Shown here: piece after piece, positions 42,384 through 49,829 of the stretch
Position numbering within the stretch: the first letter of the stretch is position 1
How the letters are laid out: each line of letters opens with the position of its first letter
From: an uncultured Bradyrhizobium sp.
Lineage (GTDB): Bacteria > Pseudomonadota > Alphaproteobacteria > Rhizobiales > Xanthobacteraceae
Reading direction: 5' to 3'
Assembly: GCF_947648125.1 (NCBI RefSeq)
Contig: NZ_CANSMR010000012.1
Coordinates: 62,001-126,000 of the forward strand
Length of the DNA: 64,000 nucleotides
The notes under the pieces: model-generated
The model's input: only the letters and a program-made list of their open reading frames with translations
Told to the model about the DNA's origin: nothing
Databases searched by the model: none
Made by a program: the position numbers and the translations under genes

Positions 42384-42476
42384 TAACCCCACCGGTCATT
42401 GGTTTGCGGGCGGCGTCATAGCACGACCCCGTGAAGCTTTGACAGCAGATATCGAGCTCTATTTGTGAGTACATCC

Positions 42477-42535
42477 TAGAGCGTTTTCGAGCGACATGGA
42501 TACCGGTCCACGTAAAGAAAACACGTCAATACAAG
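42477..42535. repeat. Dispersed element, TAGAGCGTTTTCGAGCGA orientation
   Basis: About 59 bases matching the reverse complement of 38053-38114. It ends just before the stop of the nitroreductase-like gene. Confidence 0.7.
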
Positions 42536-42538
42536 AAT

Positions 42539-43534
42539 CTACACGATGAGCCGATCGACCGGCAGCCGGAAATGCCGCGGTTTCAACGGTTTTGCGGGCC
42601 AGCCGACGCGGAACACGTTGACGAGGCGCAGATCGGTGCCGATCTTGCCGAGCTTGCGCAACCGGTCGTTGAAATCAGGGTGATCGGCCAGCGCCGAAAT
42701 CGGGCACGCCGCGAGCCCGGCGCGATCGATCTCGAGCCAGCTGCGGTAGAAATGCCGTCCCGTCGTGAGTGGGTCCTCACCGACCGGACGACAGAACAGC
42801 ACGATCGCCGCGGCCGAGGCGGTCTTGGCGCTGTCTGACAGCAGCGATGCGGCGATGCCGAGACGATCCAGCGGCTTGAACAGGCTGCCGAGCACGTAGC
42901 GCGCGGCGGTGGCCTCGACCGCATTCATGGCGAGCGCATCGCGATTGAGACCGTCGAGCAGGTAATGCGGATGATCGGGCGACAGCCGCATCCATTCGAG
43001 CAGCTCGGCCCGATAGTCGTCGCCGTGGACAAAGGAGAACTCGGCCTGGTCGGCCCAGCCGGCGATATCGGCAATTGCCCGGCGATCCCCGATGCAGATC
43101 AGATCGTCGCGCGCGACGGCAAGCTGCACCAGCGGCGCGGCATCATCCGGCGGTGCTGCGAACTTGCCACGCCACGACATCCGGTGGGCCACGTTGTCGG
43201 CCAACGGATCGGGCGCGACACCCTGCCTGATCGCAAAGCTGCAAAGCGCGGCAAATTGCGGTGACAGCGGCTGCTCGATCGTCGTCATCGCCGTGATCGC
43301 GAGGCCGCGGCGGTTGAGGGCGAGGCTCATGCCCTCGAGCGATGCGCCGTGCGACACAAGCACGTCGTGTCCGGCGGGGTCCGCGACCGGCGCGCGGACC
43401 CAGTTCGCATCGACCAGCGCCAGCCGCCCGTCGCCGAGCAGGCGCCAGCGCGTCGGCTGGATGTTGTGGACGCTCGGCGCCAGCCGCGCCTCCGCGACCA
43501 GCTCGCGCAGCAAATCCGGCGTCAGCTCGCTCAT
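42539..43534 (-). CDS. Acg-type nitroreductase homologue (FMN-binding fold)
   Basis: A 331-residue protein. LLRELVAEARLAPSVHNIQP with TRW following (residues 9-30) is the FMN-binding opening of nitroreductases, and the SVHNIQP-then-VSHGASLEGMSLAL pattern, together with the double-length chain, fits the Acg (Rv2032-like) branch, whose members may store FMN rather than turn over. Fifth and last gene of a run in which each start overlaps the preceding stop in ATGA (43534-43531 here). By context it is probably the redox step of the E1-like/acyltransferase pathway encoded upstream (inference). Confidence 0.8.
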   Translation of the reverse strand: MSELTPDLLRELVAEARLAPSVHNIQPTRWRLLGDGRLALVDANWVRAPVADPAGHDVLVSHGASLEGMSLALNRRGLAITAMTTIEQPLSPQFAALCSFAIRQGVAPDPLADNVAHRMSWRGKFAAPPDDAAPLVQLAVARDDLICIGDRRAIADIAGWADQAEFSFVHGDDYRAELLEWMRLSPDHPHYLLDGLNRDALAMNAVEATAARYVLGSLFKPLDRLGIAASLLSDSAKTASAAAIVLFCRPVGEDPLTTGRHFYRSWLEIDRAGLAACPISALADHPDFNDRLRKLGKIGTDLRLVNVFRVGWPAKPLKPRHFRLPVDRLIV

Positions 43535-44652
43535 GCTGCGGCCAGCCGCTTGGTGAACAGATGCAGCCGGTGCAGCGGCGTGGCGCCGGCCTTCTCGACC
43601 TGGCGCAGCGACGGCGCGTTGATGTCGGCGATCCAGGTGCCGCCGAGCGTGCGGTAGCCGGCCTCCTGCAACGCCAGCGCGGTGCGGTAGAGCATCGCGC
43701 CGTTGAGGCCGCGATTGTGCAGGTCGCGACAGACCGACTGATAGATCAGCACGGCGCGGGTGTTCAGCATGCGGTGATGCACGAATTTGAACGGCGCGGT
43801 AAGCCCGATCCGGCCGCCGATCGCCTTGATCAATGGATTGAGGTCCGGGATAGCGATGATCGCGCCGGCGGGTCGACCGCGGTGATAGACCACGGTCGAA
43901 ATCCGCTTGTCGATGATCCACATCATGTCGCCGGCCTGGAATAGATATTCGGCCGCGGTCGGCGGCACGAACATCGGGTTGTCGGCAAAGCCGTCGTTCA
44001 GGATCAGGCGCGCATCCTCCAGCCGCATCTTGAAGGCGGAGCGCTTGATCGGCTGCCAGACGAAATCCGAATCGGCCAGCACCGCGCGCTGCTTGTCGCC
44101 GAGCAGCTGCTCCGGCTTGCCGCCGTCGAGCGCGATCTCGAACGTCGTCATCGGGAAGGTCGCCGCATAGCCGGCGCGTTCGAGGTGTTGCGCGATATGC
44201 GGCGGCGACCACATCATGTCGGTGAACGGCGCATGGTCGAACCCGTCGGTCATGACGCCGATCTGCTGCATCGCCGTGAGATTGAAATTGCCGGCGATGC
44301 GGGTCATGCCGCGCGCGGCCAGCCACTGCTCGGCAGTGCGCAACAACAGATCGGCGACATCAGGCTCGTCGACACAATCGAAGAAGCCGAATGCACCGTG
44401 ACGGGTGCCGTGCTTGCGGTTGGAGGCATCGTGGATCGAGGCCGCGATGCGGCCGACCGGGCGGCCGTCACGATGCGCCGAGAACAGCGCATAGCGGCCA
44501 TGGCCTTCGGTGACGAACGGATTCTTCGCGGAATCGAACATCCGGTCGAAATCGCTCCACAGCGGCGGCACGTAGAGGCTGTCGGGCCCATAGGCGTTGA
44601 GCGCAGCATCAAACGCCGCCCTGCGGTCGCCCTCCCGGATCTCCAGCGTCAT
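43531..44652 (-). CDS. YghO-like GNAT-fold acyltransferase
   Basis: A 373-residue protein resembling E. coli YghO, a large GNAT-superfamily protein of unknown substrate. The opening FDAALNAYGPDSLYVPPLWS then FVTEGHGRYALFSAHRDGRPVGRIAASI gives the N-terminal GNAT half; GNFNLTAMQQIGVMTDGFDH near residue 120 is a family block; YHRGRPAGAIIAIPDLNPLI near 255 and LYQSVCRD-type blocks follow in the C-terminal half. ATGA overlaps at both ends couple it to the membrane protein and the Acg-type gene. Confidence 0.8.
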   Translation of the reverse strand: MTLEIREGDRRAAFDAALNAYGPDSLYVPPLWSDFDRMFDSAKNPFVTEGHGRYALFSAHRDGRPVGRIAASIHDASNRKHGTRHGAFGFFDCVDEPDVADLLLRTAEQWLAARGMTRIAGNFNLTAMQQIGVMTDGFDHAPFTDMMWSPPHIAQHLERAGYAATFPMTTFEIALDGGKPEQLLGDKQRAVLADSDFVWQPIKRSAFKMRLEDARLILNDGFADNPMFVPPTAAEYLFQAGDMMWIIDKRISTVVYHRGRPAGAIIAIPDLNPLIKAIGGRIGLTAPFKFVHHRMLNTRAVLIYQSVCRDLHNRGLNGAMLYRTALALQEAGYRTLGGTWIADINAPSLRQVEKAGATPLHRLHLFTKRLAAA

Positions 44653-45848
44653 TTGGCCTCCGGGGTCAGCGCCAAGAGCCGCCGCACCAACGCCAGCGCG
44701 GTTTCGGTGGCGGGATCGGCCGCGGTCACCGGCACGGCGAGCACGATCAGGTCGAGCGGATCATGCGCGAGCACGATGACATGGGAGGCGTTGTTGGCAG
44801 TCATCAGCGAGGCCATGCGCTCGGCGGCAGGGTCGGTCGGCGCCAGTCCCCACGGTGCCTCGGAGCGGCGCAGCACGCGCCTCGTCGACAGGAAGTCGCG
44901 GAGCAGCGGCGGATCGTAGGGTCCGAGCTCGTCTTCGCGGAAACGCCGCGCGCTCTCGAAGATCGGATGCCGCGCGAGCTCGGCGATCAACTGCTCCCGG
45001 GTCTGCGCCGGCGACGCCGCAACCGAGTTGAGCACGCCCGGCTCCTGCGATTCGAACAGCGCCCGCAGCGCGTCCGTCATCAGCCCGATGGTCAGCACGC
45101 CGGCGATCGCCACCGCGACGAACCGGATCATCTGCGCGGCGTCGACGTCAGGCGCCATGAAGGCGGCGGCGAGCCCGAGCAGGCCCGACGAGATCAGCCG
45201 CAGTGCCATCATCGCAAGCCCATGCCGCCGCGTCTCGGCGCCGCCGCCGGCGATCAGCATCACGGTCACCGTGAGCAGCGCCCCTAGCGCGCCGAGCCGG
45301 ACCGGAATGTCGGGAAACAGCGTGCGGAAATCGGTCAGGATGAACGGGATCACGACCAGCGCCCCGACCGCCATGCGGCCGATGCTGCGGTTTTCCGAGG
45401 CCATCAGCGAGGCGCGGTCGCGCGTTGCCAGCAGCAGCGCGCAGGTGGCAAAGCCAACGAGCTGGAACAGCGCCAGCGTGATCGCGTAGGGCATCACGAA
45501 GCGCTGCAGCCCGAACGTACCGCCGAGGCCCAGCAGAACGCCGCCCGCGAGCGCTGCGATCTTGACCGCGCGCGGCGCGTGGCGACGCAGGATGCCTTCG
45601 GTGACGATCAGCGCGCCGAGCGGAATCAGCGAAGCCGGGATCACCGAGAGACGGTCGAGCAGCCAGCTTCCGCTCCACCACGCCAGGCCGCGATCGAGGA
45701 ACAGGGTTGCGATCACGCCGAGCGCGAGCAGCAGGCGGCGCGTCAATGGGCTCCTCGGATCGCGCCGGTAGAACGTCATCATCGCCACCGCAACGCCGAT
45801 GGCGCCGCAGAGATTGACGATGGAATCGGCGATCACCCCCGAGGTCAT
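44649..45848 (-). CDS. Polytopic membrane protein of the E1-like operon
   Basis: A 399-residue protein with about nine hydrophobic segments in residues 1-265 and a soluble C-terminal region of about 130 residues. The soluble part (REQLIAELARHPIFESARRF onward) ends in a strand-rich NASHVIVLAHDPLDLIVLAV block. I recognise no family. Start at 45848 because its ATG overlaps the stop of the ThiF-like gene (ATGA), and its own stop overlaps the next start. Probably a membrane anchor or exporter for the pathway (inference). Confidence 0.78.
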   Translation of the reverse strand: MTSGVIADSIVNLCGAIGVAVAMMTFYRRDPRSPLTRRLLLALGVIATLFLDRGLAWWSGSWLLDRLSVIPASLIPLGALIVTEGILRRHAPRAVKIAALAGGVLLGLGGTFGLQRFVMPYAITLALFQLVGFATCALLLATRDRASLMASENRSIGRMAVGALVVIPFILTDFRTLFPDIPVRLGALGALLTVTVMLIAGGGAETRRHGLAMMALRLISSGLLGLAAAFMAPDVDAAQMIRFVAVAIAGVLTIGLMTDALRALFESQEPGVLNSVAASPAQTREQLIAELARHPIFESARRFREDELGPYDPPLLRDFLSTRRVLRRSEAPWGLAPTDPAAERMASLMTANNASHVIVLAHDPLDLIVLAVPVTAADPATETALALVRRLLALTPEAK

Positions 45849-46720
45849 GCGACGCCCGTCAATTGATCGATCGCCCGCCGCACTAGCGGGCGCATCAGGG
45901 CGGCGACCAGCGCATTGCGCGGCTTCTCGATCGCCGGCCGGTGCGGGTTGAGGAACCAGCCGCGGCAATCGGTGCCCGAGGTGCGGCCGAGGATCAGCGC
46001 GACCGCCTCATAGGCCATCAGCATGCCGGTCGAGATCACCATCGGCGCGAACGACATCCGGCTGCGGCGGCCGGCCGCGACCTCGCCGGCGATCGCGAGG
46101 TCGACATAGTTGCGCGAGGAGGAGTGCAGCATGACGTGCTCGATCTCGGCACGCATCGCGGCGCGGCGGTCGTCCTCGGTGATCTCGGTCCAGTCCTTGG
46201 CCAGCGTCGGAAAGCCGAGGCGCTCCTCGGGCCGCGGATCATGCGGGCGCACCACGATCACCGATGGCAACGGCGACATATAGGCATCGATCACGGTTGC
46301 GTCGGCGCGCTTGGCGGTCCGGTACAGATGCACGCCGGCGGCGATATCGTCCATGCCGTTGACGATGACCGGGCAGCGTTCGGCAATGCCGGCGAGCTCA
46401 CTGGTCCAGTTCTCGCCGAGCACCTCGACCTCGATGGTCGGGTTGATGCGTCTGGCGGCTTCGGCCGCGACCGCCGCCTTCTCGCGGCCGACCTCGTCGG
46501 CAAAGGCGAACACCTGGCGATTGAGGTTGGAGACCTCGAAGCGATCGATGTCGGCGATCACGAACTTGCCGACGCCGGCGCGCGCCAGCGCCATGAAGGC
46601 CGCGCCGCCCATGCCGCCGACGCCGCAGACGAACACCCGCGCCCGGCGCAGCAGCTGCTGCTCATGCTCGTCGATGAAGCCGATGTTGCGGCCGGTGAAG
46701 GAGTAGTAATCGAAATTCAT
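45845..46720 (-). CDS. ThiF/MoeB/E1-like adenylyltransferase
   Basis: A 291-residue E1-superfamily protein. Nucleotide loop GVGGMGG at residues 33-39, the ATP-binding ADIDRFEVSNLNRQV (56-70: D59, N65, R68), K81 in GREKAA, and NGMDD near 122-126 are the expected active-site groups. The paired CxxC zinc motifs of MoeB/ThiF are absent; the only cysteines I see are in VFVCGVGG, ERCPV and TDCRGW. It should adenylate a carboxyl group, of a peptide or small molecule rather than necessarily ThiS/MoaD. ATGA overlaps link it to the GNAT gene before it and the membrane gene after it. Confidence 0.88.
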   Translation of the reverse strand: MNFDYYSFTGRNIGFIDEHEQQLLRRARVFVCGVGGMGGAAFMALARAGVGKFVIADIDRFEVSNLNRQVFAFADEVGREKAAVAAEAARRINPTIEVEVLGENWTSELAGIAERCPVIVNGMDDIAAGVHLYRTAKRADATVIDAYMSPLPSVIVVRPHDPRPEERLGFPTLAKDWTEITEDDRRAAMRAEIEHVMLHSSSRNYVDLAIAGEVAAGRRSRMSFAPMVISTGMLMAYEAVALILGRTSGTDCRGWFLNPHRPAIEKPRNALVAALMRPLVRRAIDQLTGVA

Positions 46721-47772
46721 CGCGCGGCCCCGCTCTCCTGCCTGCGCGGCCGCAACGTGCCGAAGGCGCGGGTGTCGTCCATCCAGTAGACCACCGGCAG
46801 CACCAGCCGCTGCAGCGCCAGCATCGCCGACGCCGCGAGCAGCGCCGGCAGCGAGCCCGAGGGCACCTCGCTCATGAGATAGCGGCGCGCACCGGCAAGA
46901 TCGACGCGGCCGATCTGCAGGACGTCGTCGCCGCGGCCGTAATCCAGCTCGCGCTCGCAAAATTCGTTGTAGACGGCATCGCGATGCTTCGGCGCGATCT
47001 CAAAAGTCTTCTTCAGCGCATCCGAGCCGCCGGTATAGGCATTGGTGATGACCGAGCGCGCCTCGTCGAAACCGGCCTCCTCGCCGACACCGAACACCGC
47101 GCGATGCCGCGCCATGATGCCGCGCGCGAGTTGCAGATGCGCAAAGCTCTGCCGCGCCCCCGGCAGCGGCGACGGGAATACGTCCGAGAAGGTGTCGCTG
47201 ACCATGCCGACCACCGCCGGCACCTGGGTGACGTTGGAGATCCATTTCGGCCGCAGCCCGTCGCGCGCGAACAGCACCAGCGCGGTCAGGCCGTAAAGCA
47301 CCCAGGACAGCCCCTGCCCGCGCACATCGGGATCGACCATCACGAGGCCGAGATGGGTGACTTCCGTGGGCTCGCCGTCGAGCGTCACGTCCATCACCGA
47401 CAGCGCGTTGAACGCGATCGGCCGTCCACTGTCTTCCTCGGAGATCAGCGTGATGATGGCGCGCGACAGCCGCTCCGGCTCGCCGGAGAAGATGCCGTAA
47501 GTCAGGCTCTCCTCGGGCAGCGTCTTGGCGGCGACGATGCGCAGCTGCCCGACCAGCGCGTCGAGCTCGGCTTTCGGCAGCGACAGGCCGGGCGATTCGA
47601 CGATGCGGGTGCGCTGGCCGGCCTGGGTGCGCAAGGTGAGATCGATGGTCGGCTGCGACAGCGCCTTCAGCCAGAAACCGCCATGGCTGCGGAGGCCGTC
47701 AAAGGCCGCGCGCGCCTTCGTAAGGCTCCTGCTGCCGCGCGAAGCGGGGGTGCGATTGTCCGTGGACGCCAT
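46717..47772 (-). CDS. GNAT-like protein, first gene of the E1-like operon
   Basis: A 351-residue protein. The central GNAT block is HLGLVMVDPDVRGQGLSWVL near residue 178, where VDPDVRGQGLS corresponds to the acetyl-CoA-binding R/Q-x-x-G-x-G/A loop; the rest, including YDEARS-type C-terminal helices, is not familiar. Start at 47772 chosen because GAGGGACAGAA lies upstream. It opens a five-gene operon of GNAT, E1, membrane, YghO-like and Acg-like genes, all with ATGA junctions. Substrate unknown. Confidence 0.75.
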   Translation of the reverse strand: MASTDNRTPASRGSRSLTKARAAFDGLRSHGGFWLKALSQPTIDLTLRTQAGQRTRIVESPGLSLPKAELDALVGQLRIVAAKTLPEESLTYGIFSGEPERLSRAIITLISEEDSGRPIAFNALSVMDVTLDGEPTEVTHLGLVMVDPDVRGQGLSWVLYGLTALVLFARDGLRPKWISNVTQVPAVVGMVSDTFSDVFPSPLPGARQSFAHLQLARGIMARHRAVFGVGEEAGFDEARSVITNAYTGGSDALKKTFEIAPKHRDAVYNEFCERELDYGRGDDVLQIGRVDLAGARRYLMSEVPSGSLPALLAASAMLALQRLVLPVVYWMDDTRAFGTLRPRRQESGAAR

Positions 47773-48072
47773 TTCTCTGTCCCTCGGGCGCGATCTCTGC
47801 ACTCTCGCCTGTTAAAGAGCCATGAGTGCAACCTGGCGCTGTTTGCCGCAGGGTAAACAAGGCCTTCCGGAAACGGAACAAGTTGGTGCTAAGCGGTCGG
47901 CGGCCTATCCACACCGTCATTGCGAGCGAAGCGAAGCAATCCATCCGTCCGCATATGCGGTGCAATGGATTGCTTCGTCGCTACGCTCCTCGCAATGACG
48001 TGGAGAGCTTTGGGCATTGGCCGTTATTCAGAGCGGCGGGTAAAAAGCCCCGCCGCTTCGTCTTTCTTCGGC
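47773..48072. other. Upstream region of the E1-like operon, with REP copy 4
   Basis: No gene is seen in these 300 bases. REP-like palindrome copy 4 occupies 47915-48000 (arms CGTCATTGCGAGCGAAGCGA and its complement CTCGCAATGACG). The operon promoter should lie in 47780-47915. I looked there for a small peptide gene that could be an E1 substrate and found none convincing. Confidence 0.6.
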
Positions 48073-48348
48073 TCACCCCGCCTTGGACACTTCCATCAGC
48101 AGGCGCTCGGCCTTGGCGTCCTCGATGCGGTTCACGAACTTGCCGCTCTCGTAATTGTCGCGCACCGTCTTGGTCAGCGTGATGCAGGTCTGGACCAGCA
48201 TCACAATGCCCATCGTCAGATAGCCCTTCATCCAGAGGTCGATCGGCAGGAAGAACACGCCGACGGCGACGAGGAAGGCGGAGGCTGCGAAGGACGCGTA
48301 GGTGAAGGTGATCCAGCTGCCGCTGTGGGGTTGGATGGTCTGGTTCAT
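48073..48348 (-). CDS. YiaA/YiaB-family inner-membrane protein
   Basis: A 91-residue protein with two hydrophobic segments (ITFTYASFAASAFLVAVGVF and GYLTMGIVMLVQTCITLTK) of the YiaAB two-helix family, and a polar C-terminal tail. AAGGAGACGACC precedes the ATG. It lies 70 bases after the PspA-like gene, on the same strand, so the two may form an envelope-stress pair. Confidence 0.88.
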   Translation of the reverse strand: MNQTIQPHSGSWITFTYASFAASAFLVAVGVFFLPIDLWMKGYLTMGIVMLVQTCITLTKTVRDNYESGKFVNRIEDAKAERLLMEVSKAG

Positions 48349-48418: not shown

Positions 48419-49114
48419 TCAGGCGGCAGGCGGGCGCTTGGCTCTCAAGCGCGCCAGCACGTCGTCGGCCGTCGATTTCATCCGCGGGCCAAAGCCCTGC
48501 TCGGCGAGCTTCTCGGCGGTGGCTGATGGGCCCGAGGCGGTGTCGATCTCGAACAGCGCGTCATCGGCCGCCTGGATCTCCATCTGCCGCTCGCGCAGCC
48601 GCTTCAGCGTCGCTTCCGCTTCCGGCAGCGTCGACTCGTAGGGCCGCGCCGCCTCGATGCTGCTTCGGCGCAGCGAACGCACCGCTTCCGAGGCGCGGGC
48701 GAGGCGACGGCCGCGATCGAGCTCGGCAATGCGCGCCTCGGCGTTGCCGACATGGCGCTTCAGCCGGGTGATCTCGGTGGCGAACAGCGTGCGCGCGGTC
48801 ATTGCGGCGTCGCGTTCGGCTTCGAGATTGGCGATCGCCTGGGCGGCTTCGCGGGCGAGGTCGTCCCGGCCGCCCTCGAGCACCGCCGACGCCCGCACCT
48901 CGAGATCGGCGATCCGGGCATTGGTCGCCTCGAGCCGCCGGCCCTCCTGCTGGTCGCCGGCAATGGCGAGCGCCAGGGTCCGTTTCGAGCGGTCGACCGC
49001 GGCGGCGGCATCGCGCATCTGCTGGTCGAGCACGACCAGCGCGGTCCGATCTTGCAGTTCCTCCTCGGCTGCCGCCACGCTGCCGCGGAAAATCGTCAAA
49101 ACAGTTTTGAACAT
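48419..49114 (-). CDS. PspA/IM30-like coiled-coil protein
   Basis: A 231-residue, highly helical protein rich in Ala, Arg, Glu and Leu. MFKTVLTIFRGSVAAAEEEL opens as in PspA, and the long coiled coil carries RDAAAAVDRSKRTLALAIAG and LEAERDAAMTARTLFATEIT. PspA proteins coat stressed inner membranes. GGGAG precedes the ATG at 49114. Divergent from a TetR gene across a region with three matching palindromes, so it is probably repressed by that protein. Confidence 0.85.
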   Translation of the reverse strand: MFKTVLTIFRGSVAAAEEELQDRTALVVLDQQMRDAAAAVDRSKRTLALAIAGDQQEGRRLEATNARIADLEVRASAVLEGGRDDLAREAAQAIANLEAERDAAMTARTLFATEITRLKRHVGNAEARIAELDRGRRLARASEAVRSLRRSSIEAARPYESTLPEAEATLKRLRERQMEIQAADDALFEIDTASGPSATAEKLAEQGFGPRMKSTADDVLARLRAKRPPAA

Positions 49115-49128
49115 TTGGCCACTCCCTG

Positions 49129-49200
49129 TTATGAGCATCGCTCATAAATCTCTTGTACCACATAATGAGCATTGCTCAAGAATTATTTGAGCACCGCTCA
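49129..49200. promoter_or_regulatory. Three TGAGC-N3-GCTCA operator palindromes
   Basis: TGAGC-ATC-GCTCA at 49132-49144 (extended to a perfect TTATGAGC / GCTCATAA stem at 49129-49147), TGAGC-ATT-GCTCA at 49166-49178 and TGAGC-ACC-GCTCA at 49188-49200. The arms of all three are identical and only the three central bases vary. Centre spacings are 34 and 22 bases. They occupy the shared promoter of the PspA-like and TetR genes. Confidence 0.75.
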
Positions 49201-49226: not shown

Positions 49227-49829
49227 ATGTCCAAAGCATTGGAACGACGAGCGAAACTGCGCGAAGCGCTGATCGAGGCGGCGGAACGGGCAATTGCGGC
49301 AAAGGGTCTCGGCGGCCTGAAAACGCGCGAACTGGCCCAGGAAATCGGGGTCGCCAATGGCGGCGTCTACAATCTGGTCGAGGATGTCGACGAGCTGATC
49401 CTGCGTGTCGGCTCCCGCACGCTGGCCCGGCTCGATGCCTCGCTGTCGCTGGCCGAGATCGGCGGCGCGGCGGCGCCGCGCGAGATGCTGGTGCGGATCG
49501 CCGTCGCCTATTGCGACTTCGCCGCCGACAATCTCGAATTGTGGCGCGCGCTGTTCGAACATCGCATGCAGCCCGGCAAGCCGGTGCCGGAATGGGCGAT
49601 CAGCGAGCAGATGGAACTGTTCCGCCACATCTACAAGCCGCTCGCCGCGTTGTTTCCGCAGCGTTCGCCGGCGCAGCTCGGCGTCACCGCGCGCAGCCTG
49701 TTCTCCGCCGTGCATGGCATGGTCGCGCTCGGGCTGGAGCACAAGCTGATCGCGGTGCCGATCGGCGCGCTGCGCAGCGAGATCTCGACCCTGACGCGCG
49801 CGATGGTCGACGGCCTGACGGCGAAGTAG
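49227..49829 (+). CDS. TetR-family regulator
   Basis: A 200-residue TetR-type repressor. Helix-turn-helix LKTRELAQEIGVANGGVYNL near residues 31-50, followed by an all-helical ligand domain of the WHG type (LWRALFEHRM). Divergent from the PspA-YiaA pair and next to three matching operator palindromes, so it probably represses both itself and that pair. Signal unknown. Confidence 0.92.
   Translation: MSKALERRAKLREALIEAAERAIAAKGLGGLKTRELAQEIGVANGGVYNLVEDVDELILRVGSRTLARLDASLSLAEIGGAAAPREMLVRIAVAYCDFAADNLELWRALFEHRMQPGKPVPEWAISEQMELFRHIYKPLAALFPQRSPAQLGVTARSLFSAVHGMVALGLEHKLIAVPIGALRSEISTLTRAMVDGLTAK

Follow-up and report, generated by a model that had tools for sequence, protein, structure and literature searches.

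Organization of the five-gene operon

The window analysed here is a stretch of 64,000 nucleotides from the 8.57 Mb genome of an uncultured Bradyrhizobium sp. (contig NZ_CANSMR010000012.1), in which an operon of five genes occupies positions 42539-47772 on the minus strand. All five open reading frames (ORFs) were confirmed at the coordinates claimed in an earlier reading of this DNA made from its letters alone (hereafter, the sequence-only reading). In the direction of transcription, they encode a GNAT-fold acyltransferase of 351 amino acids (P0001, 46717..47772), an E1/ThiF-like adenylating enzyme of 291 amino acids (P0002, 45845..46720), a polytopic membrane protein of 399 amino acids (P0003 or MEM, 44649..45848), a YghO-like N-acyltransferase of 373 amino acids (P0004, 43531..44652) and an Acg-type nitroreductase/flavin oxidase of 331 amino acids (P0005 or NTR, 42539..43534). 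As will be shown, the set is not one unit but consists of two separable parts: module I, formed by GNAT and the membrane protein, and the optional module II, formed by the E1-like, YghO-like and nitroreductase genes.

Each of the four junctions is a 4-base ATGA overlap with an in-frame downstream ATG (46720/46717, 45848/45845, 44652/44649 and 43534/43531). According to a rough count with a home-made gene rule, an NTGA overlap is possible in 9 of the 32 successive same-strand gene-like ORF pairs of the window, four of them in the operon and the others in 5/28 pairs elsewhere. The coupling is also conserved. Among 77 loci gathered by searching a genome collection with the E1-like protein, and with start codons chosen by rule, the exact 4-base overlap was present in 48 of 65 measurable GNAT/E1 junctions, 60 of 73 E1/MEM junctions, 52 of 68 MEM/YghO junctions and 43 of 63 YghO/NTR junctions. 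The five-gene ATGA-coupled operon described in the sequence-only reading is therefore borne out.

Conservation of the gene order and its division into two modules

GNAT, E1, MEM, YghO-like and NTR genes were all present in this order in 68 of the 77 loci, which is the kind of conserved gene order that a neighbourhood comparison was meant to look for. Since the loci were found via E1, its presence there is given by construction, while the genome searches described below are free of that bias. Among the nine incomplete loci, three (L021, L048, L062) each miss one gene at a contig end, five have NTR directly after MEM with no YghO-like gene between (L049, L050, L066, L071 and L077, the last of which also ends inside NTR), and L064 is without GNAT and MEM at the locus. 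The closest relatives of the window operon are Bradyrhizobium records, with 99% identity of E1 in L005, and record titles further include Bosea, Shinella, Ensifer, Mesorhizobium, Devosia, Brevundimonas, Caulobacter and several Rhodobacterales, as well as single records of Lysobacter, a Halomonas metagenome-assembled genome (MAG) and an Eisenbacteria MAG. In rhizobial plasmid records, the same 10 match both GNAT and E1. A gene for GNAT lies beside E1 in 75 of the 77 loci, the exceptions being L048, at a contig end, and L064, a Yoonia locus with E1-YghO-NTR whose genome carries the GNAT-MEM pair elsewhere (L201). No ThiF-nitroreductase fusion was seen in this family, in which 75 of 77 loci hold both parts; the sole fusion met was of the PRK14851 type (L100).

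The division into modules became apparent from searches of 156 Bradyrhizobium genomes (thresholds: MEM 1e-5, E1 1e-60, YghO 1e-50, NTR 1e-30), with counts that ignore kinship. Matches were obtained in 62 genomes for MEM, 19 for E1, 19 for YghO and 20 for NTR. E1, YghO and NTR occur in the same 19 genomes, the additional NTR being one distant match at 7e-31 (G764). All 19 match MEM, and 43 MEM genomes are without the three genes, two of them by MEM remnants only; the MEM matches in G726 and G742 are pieces at contig ends. No genome was shown to hold E1 and lack GNAT-MEM, either at the 77 E1 loci or in the 156 genomes. Module II thus depends on module I in the sense of one-way co-occurrence. That the five genes rarely occur together, by which the sequence-only reading could have failed, turns out half true: E1 goes with GNAT (beside it in 75/77 loci) and with MEM (matched in 19/19 genomes), while MEM is commoner without E1 (43 vs 19 genomes). 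Likewise, its interpretation of the tight coupling as evidence for stoichiometric, functionally linked products is right as to the operon but too strongly worded, because the GNAT-MEM pair is also maintained where the other three are missing.

Inspection of 29 new MEM loci (L126-L154, the window's own L115 excluded) revealed 18 five-gene loci, partial at stretch ends, and 11 with GNAT-MEM only, and GNAT adjoins E1 or MEM in all 29. Together with L120-L122, all 14 two-gene Bradyrhizobium loci examined keep an ATGA-coupled GNAT-MEM pair, and the overlap is likewise present in L123, from another family, and in the Yoonia pair, that is, in 16/16 two-gene loci. When the operon region of the window was aligned with that of L202, two separate gaps appeared, one spanning ~42453-44647 (YghO-NTR) and the other 45895-46744 (E1). 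For a tree built from GNAT and MEM, 14 Bradyrhizobium loci that were nearly identical and 5 loci lacking a complete GNAT and MEM were set aside; on the 74 loci that it comprises, the two-gene state requires 4 changes, compared with a mean of 13.9 after shuffling. Two-gene loci surround the five-gene Bradyrhizobium rows, with L142 inside them, and the adjoining Bosea rows are five-gene. We prefer to read this as repeated joint loss of three non-contiguous genes, although the change count itself fits gain or loss alike.

The pair kept alone in Bradyrhizobium and the separation of E1-YghO-NTR from GNAT-MEM in Yoonia could also mean that the modules are functionally separate, module II using the YghO-like protein as its own N-acyltransferase and sharing no more than a promoter and a site with GNAT-MEM. 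We consider this unlikely, given that the Yoonia genome still holds GNAT-MEM, that every one of the 19 E1 genomes matches MEM, that E1 is interleaved between GNAT and MEM in the 68 complete loci, and that the five loci without YghO keep GNAT, E1, MEM and NTR.

Some five-gene loci carry truncated or frame-disrupted copies of NTR, YghO or E1 (G657, G749; L012, L019, L025, L080), which may be signs that module II is eroding or mere errors of sequencing. Furthermore, short MEM remnants are all that was found in G663 and G755, two genomes without the operon, which suggests that module I may decay too.

Properties of the encoded proteins

P0002 belongs to the ThiF family (PF00899, 126.5 bits against a cut-off of 28.1, 1.2e-36). 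It keeps the residues aligned with MoeB R14, GxGGxG, D62, N70, R73, Q74, K86 and D130 (the last of these being D124 of P0002 by our count), and the 25 operon E1s that were compared all share the adenylation residues; GxGGxG, R14, N70, R73, K86 and D130 are those which we take to have such roles in MoeB. At the zinc cysteine positions, on the other hand, operon E1s hold other residues or gaps, which confirms an E1-like enzyme without CxxC zinc motifs. In the PDB, it shows sequence similarity to TcdA (5.5e-15), ThiF (1.8e-14) and MoeB (2.6e-13). In the tree, operon E1s form their own clade (support 95/97) outside MoeB/ThiF, and not inside it, as the sequence-only reading had allowed for as its possible refutation. 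They join PRK14851-type ThiFs by a branch of 1.4 and the MoeB/ThiF group by one of 3.8, in a tree whose bootstrap was not settled and in which two own-genome rows and TcdA sit on very long branches. A MoeB/ThiF cofactor role for P0002 was rejected, based on the separate clade, the lack of zinc cysteines, and scores far below the TIGR02355/02356 cut-offs.

Operon E1s have no invariant cysteine (C32 is present in 34/41 and C252 in 32/41), and transfer without a thioester is therefore possible. This has a bearing on the proposal that E1 activates the C-terminus of a protein or peptide, in a ubiquitin-like manner or in the manner of ribosomally synthesized and post-translationally modified peptides (RiPPs), and that the modified peptide is the substrate of the flavin enzyme. 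Membership of P0002 in the E1/ThiF superfamily agrees with it, but besides the lack of an invariant cysteine, the two acyltransferases point to lipid chemistry, the overlaps leave no space in which a precursor gene could lie between the five, and in some genera the operon directly adjoins a large conserved gene on one side (LplT-Aas-like in Bosea, RoxA-like in other loci; see below). RiPP-like modification, to which the sequence-only reading had pointed, was accordingly not borne out, though the flanks were not searched specifically for small ORFs, and we regard a protein or peptide substrate as highly improbable.

P0005 is of the Acg type. NF047509 is its best NCBIfam model, at 136 bits and thus below the cut-off of 199, and its family profile matches Acg (2YMV) at 9e-20. 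The family is a clade of its own, with full support (100) in the Shimodaira-Hasegawa-like approximate likelihood ratio test (SH-aLRT); it lies on the NF047509 side of the tree (SH-aLRT 94), yet outside that group.

For P0001, the assignment to GNAT is weak by sequence, and the GNAT fold is given by AlphaFold; a hydrophobic helix lies at the C-terminus (~305-331). FeeM was not among the 50 structural matches listed for P0001, which excludes nothing, and a NodA match in 2 of 36 relatives at 0.03 was not used. According to hydropathy, P0003 has about nine transmembrane segments and a cytoplasmic C-terminal domain; when 41 family members were compared with Pfam, and the family with PDB profiles, only scattered weak matches appeared, none reaching a Pfam cut-off or being convincing in the PDB. 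P0004 is a full-length homologue of E. coli YghO (26% over 389 columns, 1e-32). Acetyltransf_1 was found in 34 of 35 members of its family at E up to 0.1, with P0004 itself at 0.16. No sequence link was detected between P0001 and P0004, or between P0004 and FeeM-like synthases, and a PHROGs search with P0001, P0003 and P0004 gave nothing useful. In PMC9386255, yghO is listed together with Caulobacter CC_1154, a ceramide N-acyltransferase, and N-acylation of a sphingoid base is suggested for E. coli YghO. The Caulobacter ceramide N-acyltransferase is a cytoplasmic peripheral membrane enzyme.

Genes surrounding the operon

Directly upstream of the operon, the window contains genes for three conserved neighbours: a YiaA/B-type small membrane protein (48073..48348, minus strand; PF05360, 6e-19), which recurs beside the operon, a PspA/IM30-family protein (48419..49138, minus strand; PF04012, 5.5e-23) and a divergent TetR-family regulator (49227..49829, plus strand; PF13305/PF00440). 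Bosea has this block next to the operon as well, and in Shinella, Ensifer, Rhizobium and Mesorhizobium loci it lies on the opposite side; in some loci it is incomplete, and in some the stretch ends there. A gene for an LplT-Aas-like protein (MFS, PlsC-type and AMP-binding parts) directly precedes GNAT in Bosea and is convergent after NTR in those rhizobia; such fusions abut the operon at L027 3581-7036 (Bosea) and L205 12217-15615 (rhizobial plasmid).

In other genera, the position after NTR is taken by a convergent gene for a RoxA-like cytochrome. Of the 71 loci whose sequence extends 1.8 kb or more beyond NTR, 29 have it; two proteins of this group were identified by Pfam and the rest by similarity. 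A rule-based search yielded 28 of the ORFs, all with two CxxCH motifs, and in Yoonia the gene stays with E1-YghO-NTR. The gene for this dihaem c-type cytochrome, seen at L064 10970-12586 and 28 other loci, has its end no more than 26 bases from the stop codon of NTR in all 28 of these ORFs. Taken together, PspA, YiaA, LplT-Aas and, elsewhere, RoxA-like neighbours suggest a role in the envelope.

Upstream of GNAT, at 47912-48000 of the window, there is a dispersed inverted-repeat element resembling repetitive extragenic palindromic (REP) sequences, copies of which match elsewhere in related loci. The RefSeq record of an Ensifer plasmid annotates the GNAT, membrane protein and NTR genes as 'hypothetical protein'.

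A possible pathway

No paper on this operon was among the matches listed in an open-access library, which were papers on oxazolones and N-acyl tyrosines, reviews of ThiF-like enzymes and unrelated work. Several described systems combine similar enzymes. Acyl-oxazolone pathways (PMC10404671, PMC12856293) combine an N-acyltransferase with a ThiF cyclase and a flavin oxidase, and N-acyl dehydrotyrosine clusters hold the same three enzyme types, a synthase without ThiF and nitroreductase giving only saturated N-acyl amino acids in Massilia umbonata (PMC12479983). That bacteria make lipids of the acyl-oxazolone kind is a recent finding, and what these lipids do is still an open question (PMC12856293). 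Oxazolones are destroyed by acid and by methanol.

The gene order, the coupling, the two-module behaviour, the adenylation residues and the clade positions are established by observation. On this basis, and by analogy, we tentatively propose that the two modules form one pathway to a modified lipid of the N-acyl amino acid type, with chemistry most like oxazolone synthesis, a reading whose probability we place somewhat short of even. Like the ThiF and nitroreductase pair of the N-acyl dehydrotyrosine clusters, module II may be there or not while an acyltransferase is kept, which leads us to propose acylation by the first module and cyclisation/desaturation by the second. Module I (P0001 and P0003) would make an N-acylated amino compound and handle it at the inner membrane, and presumably works alone in many species. 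By comparison with OxzB, TyzBC and TrzS, P0002 would adenylate the carboxylate and close it into an oxazolone-like ring or another activated form, and P0005 would introduce a C=C bond with O2. P0004, as a relative of bacterial ceramide synthase, may add a second acyl chain, and the product, judging from the neighbouring genes, probably resides in the cell envelope.

Several points weigh against this proposal. P0003 carries no recognised function, and a product of module I alone is inferred only from the retention of the module. The P0001 family has no similarity to a FeeM-like synthase profile of 7 sequences (hhalign probability 0.1), and BjaI, present among its structural matches, is tied with many ordinary GNATs; 'amino acid N-acyltransferase' is therefore only a guess for P0001. 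P0002 scores 116.5 bits on PRK08223, against a cut-off of 266 and over its N-terminal half only, compared with 380-455 for five PRK14851-type references, and it thus does not reach the cut-off of NF006077 or NF011424 along its full length, by which oxazolone-type (PRK08223/PRK14851-like) ThiFs were to be recognised. P0005 groups neither with the NF047509 group nor with five ThiF-linked flavin oxidases, the only references used for comparison with FDO-A (TyzC/OxzB/TrzS), none of which is one of those published proteins and with which the paper's subclusters were not reproduced. The 15 PRK14851-type ThiFs, labelled 'FDO-linkedThiF' in the E1 tree, have NTR adjoining or fused in 5 loci only; in the other 10 no NTR was detected beside ThiF, so that this type is not always paired with a flavin oxidase. 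Finally, at the five loci with NTR directly after MEM, examined at the locus only, the YghO-like protein is missing and thus would not be essential to the chemistry, the core of which would be GNAT, E1, MEM and NTR.

Alternatively, E1 could activate a lipid or amino-acid carboxylate for amide formation with an amine; a lipid of the sphingoid or ornithine kind would then receive an N-acyl chain from the YghO-like protein and be oxidised by the flavin enzyme, the result being a two-chain amino lipid and no oxazolone. The association of YghO with a ceramide N-acyltransferase, the LplT-Aas-like neighbour, the possibility of transfer without a thioester and the restriction of the PRK08223 match to half of E1 all agree with this. 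However, pairs of ThiF-type and TyzC-type flavin enzymes belong to oxazolone/dehydro-amino acid routes in the literature cited, and no evident serine palmitoyltransferase or recognised ceramide genes were present among the recurrent neighbour families viewed, with no search aimed at them, so we find this alternative doubtful.

The oxazolone-like pathway could be extended to an envelope-lipid system widespread in Alphaproteobacteria, in which GNAT-MEM, belonging to a PspA/YiaA membrane-stress locus, would make an N-acyl amino lipid and place it, E1-YghO-NTR, as an optional 'electrophile cassette', would make of it a desaturated and reactive lipid of the acyl-oxazolone type, and the RoxA-like protein, where convergent to NTR, would act on the C=C bond in the periplasm. 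This is a distinctly unlikely elaboration; if true, it would represent a new class of bacterial envelope lipid, and a cassette whose genes appear and disappear together though they are non-contiguous. The two-module pathway itself, if correct, would extend oxazolone-kind chemistry to rhizobia, Bosea, Caulobacter relatives and marine Rhodobacterales, would place it in the context of the envelope, and would tie the P0001, P0003 and P0005 families, which have no known role, to one pathway. Natural pairs of close strains with and without module II, such as the window species and the G759 species (L202), make the physiological role testable in harmless soil bacteria.

Comparison with known systems

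Compared with TcdA/MoeB/ThiF, P0002 shares sequence similarity and the adenylation residues, but it lies outside MoeB/ThiF, has no zinc cysteines, and no gene for a ubiquitin-like protein is among the five; the placement of TcdA is unsure due to its long branch. P0005 resembles the mycobacterial (MSMEG) nitroreductase Acg (2YMV) and NF047509 by profile and best model, and differs in its sub-cut-off score and separate clade. The homology of P0004 to YghO over its whole length links the operon to the bacterial ceramide synthase bCerS/aca (CC_1154; yghO), although the two are only 26% identical.

The N-acyl dehydrotyrosine clusters (stieleriacines, thalassotalic and kyonggic acids) are alike in having a synthase with or without a ThiF and nitroreductase pair, whereas P0001 differs by profile from the FeeM-like synthases tested, NasY sequences not being among them. 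The sequence-only reading had also pointed to Rv1355c as a ThiF/nitroreductase fusion; this proved correct, and the protein, since named TrzS, joins ThiF and flavin oxidase parts and makes tryptazolones (PMC12856293).

A close parallel in content is provided by OxzAB, TyzACB and TrzAS (Pseudoalteromonas rubra; actinobacteria), in which an N-acyltransferase, a ThiF-like ATP-dependent cyclase and a flavin mononucleotide-dependent oxidase of the nitroreductase superfamily are encoded together. Likeness to the oxazolone type was assessed via PRK14851-type references, which stood in for OxzB, TyzB and TrzS. The PRK14851-type ThiFs compared are also without MoeB-type zinc cysteines, and 7 of the 8 neighbouring proteins scanned match the FeeM/Acetyltransf_5 synthase families. 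The operon, in contrast, has no FeeM-like synthase, its E1 and NTR form separate clades, and it adds a membrane protein, a YghO-like acyltransferase and a two-module architecture.

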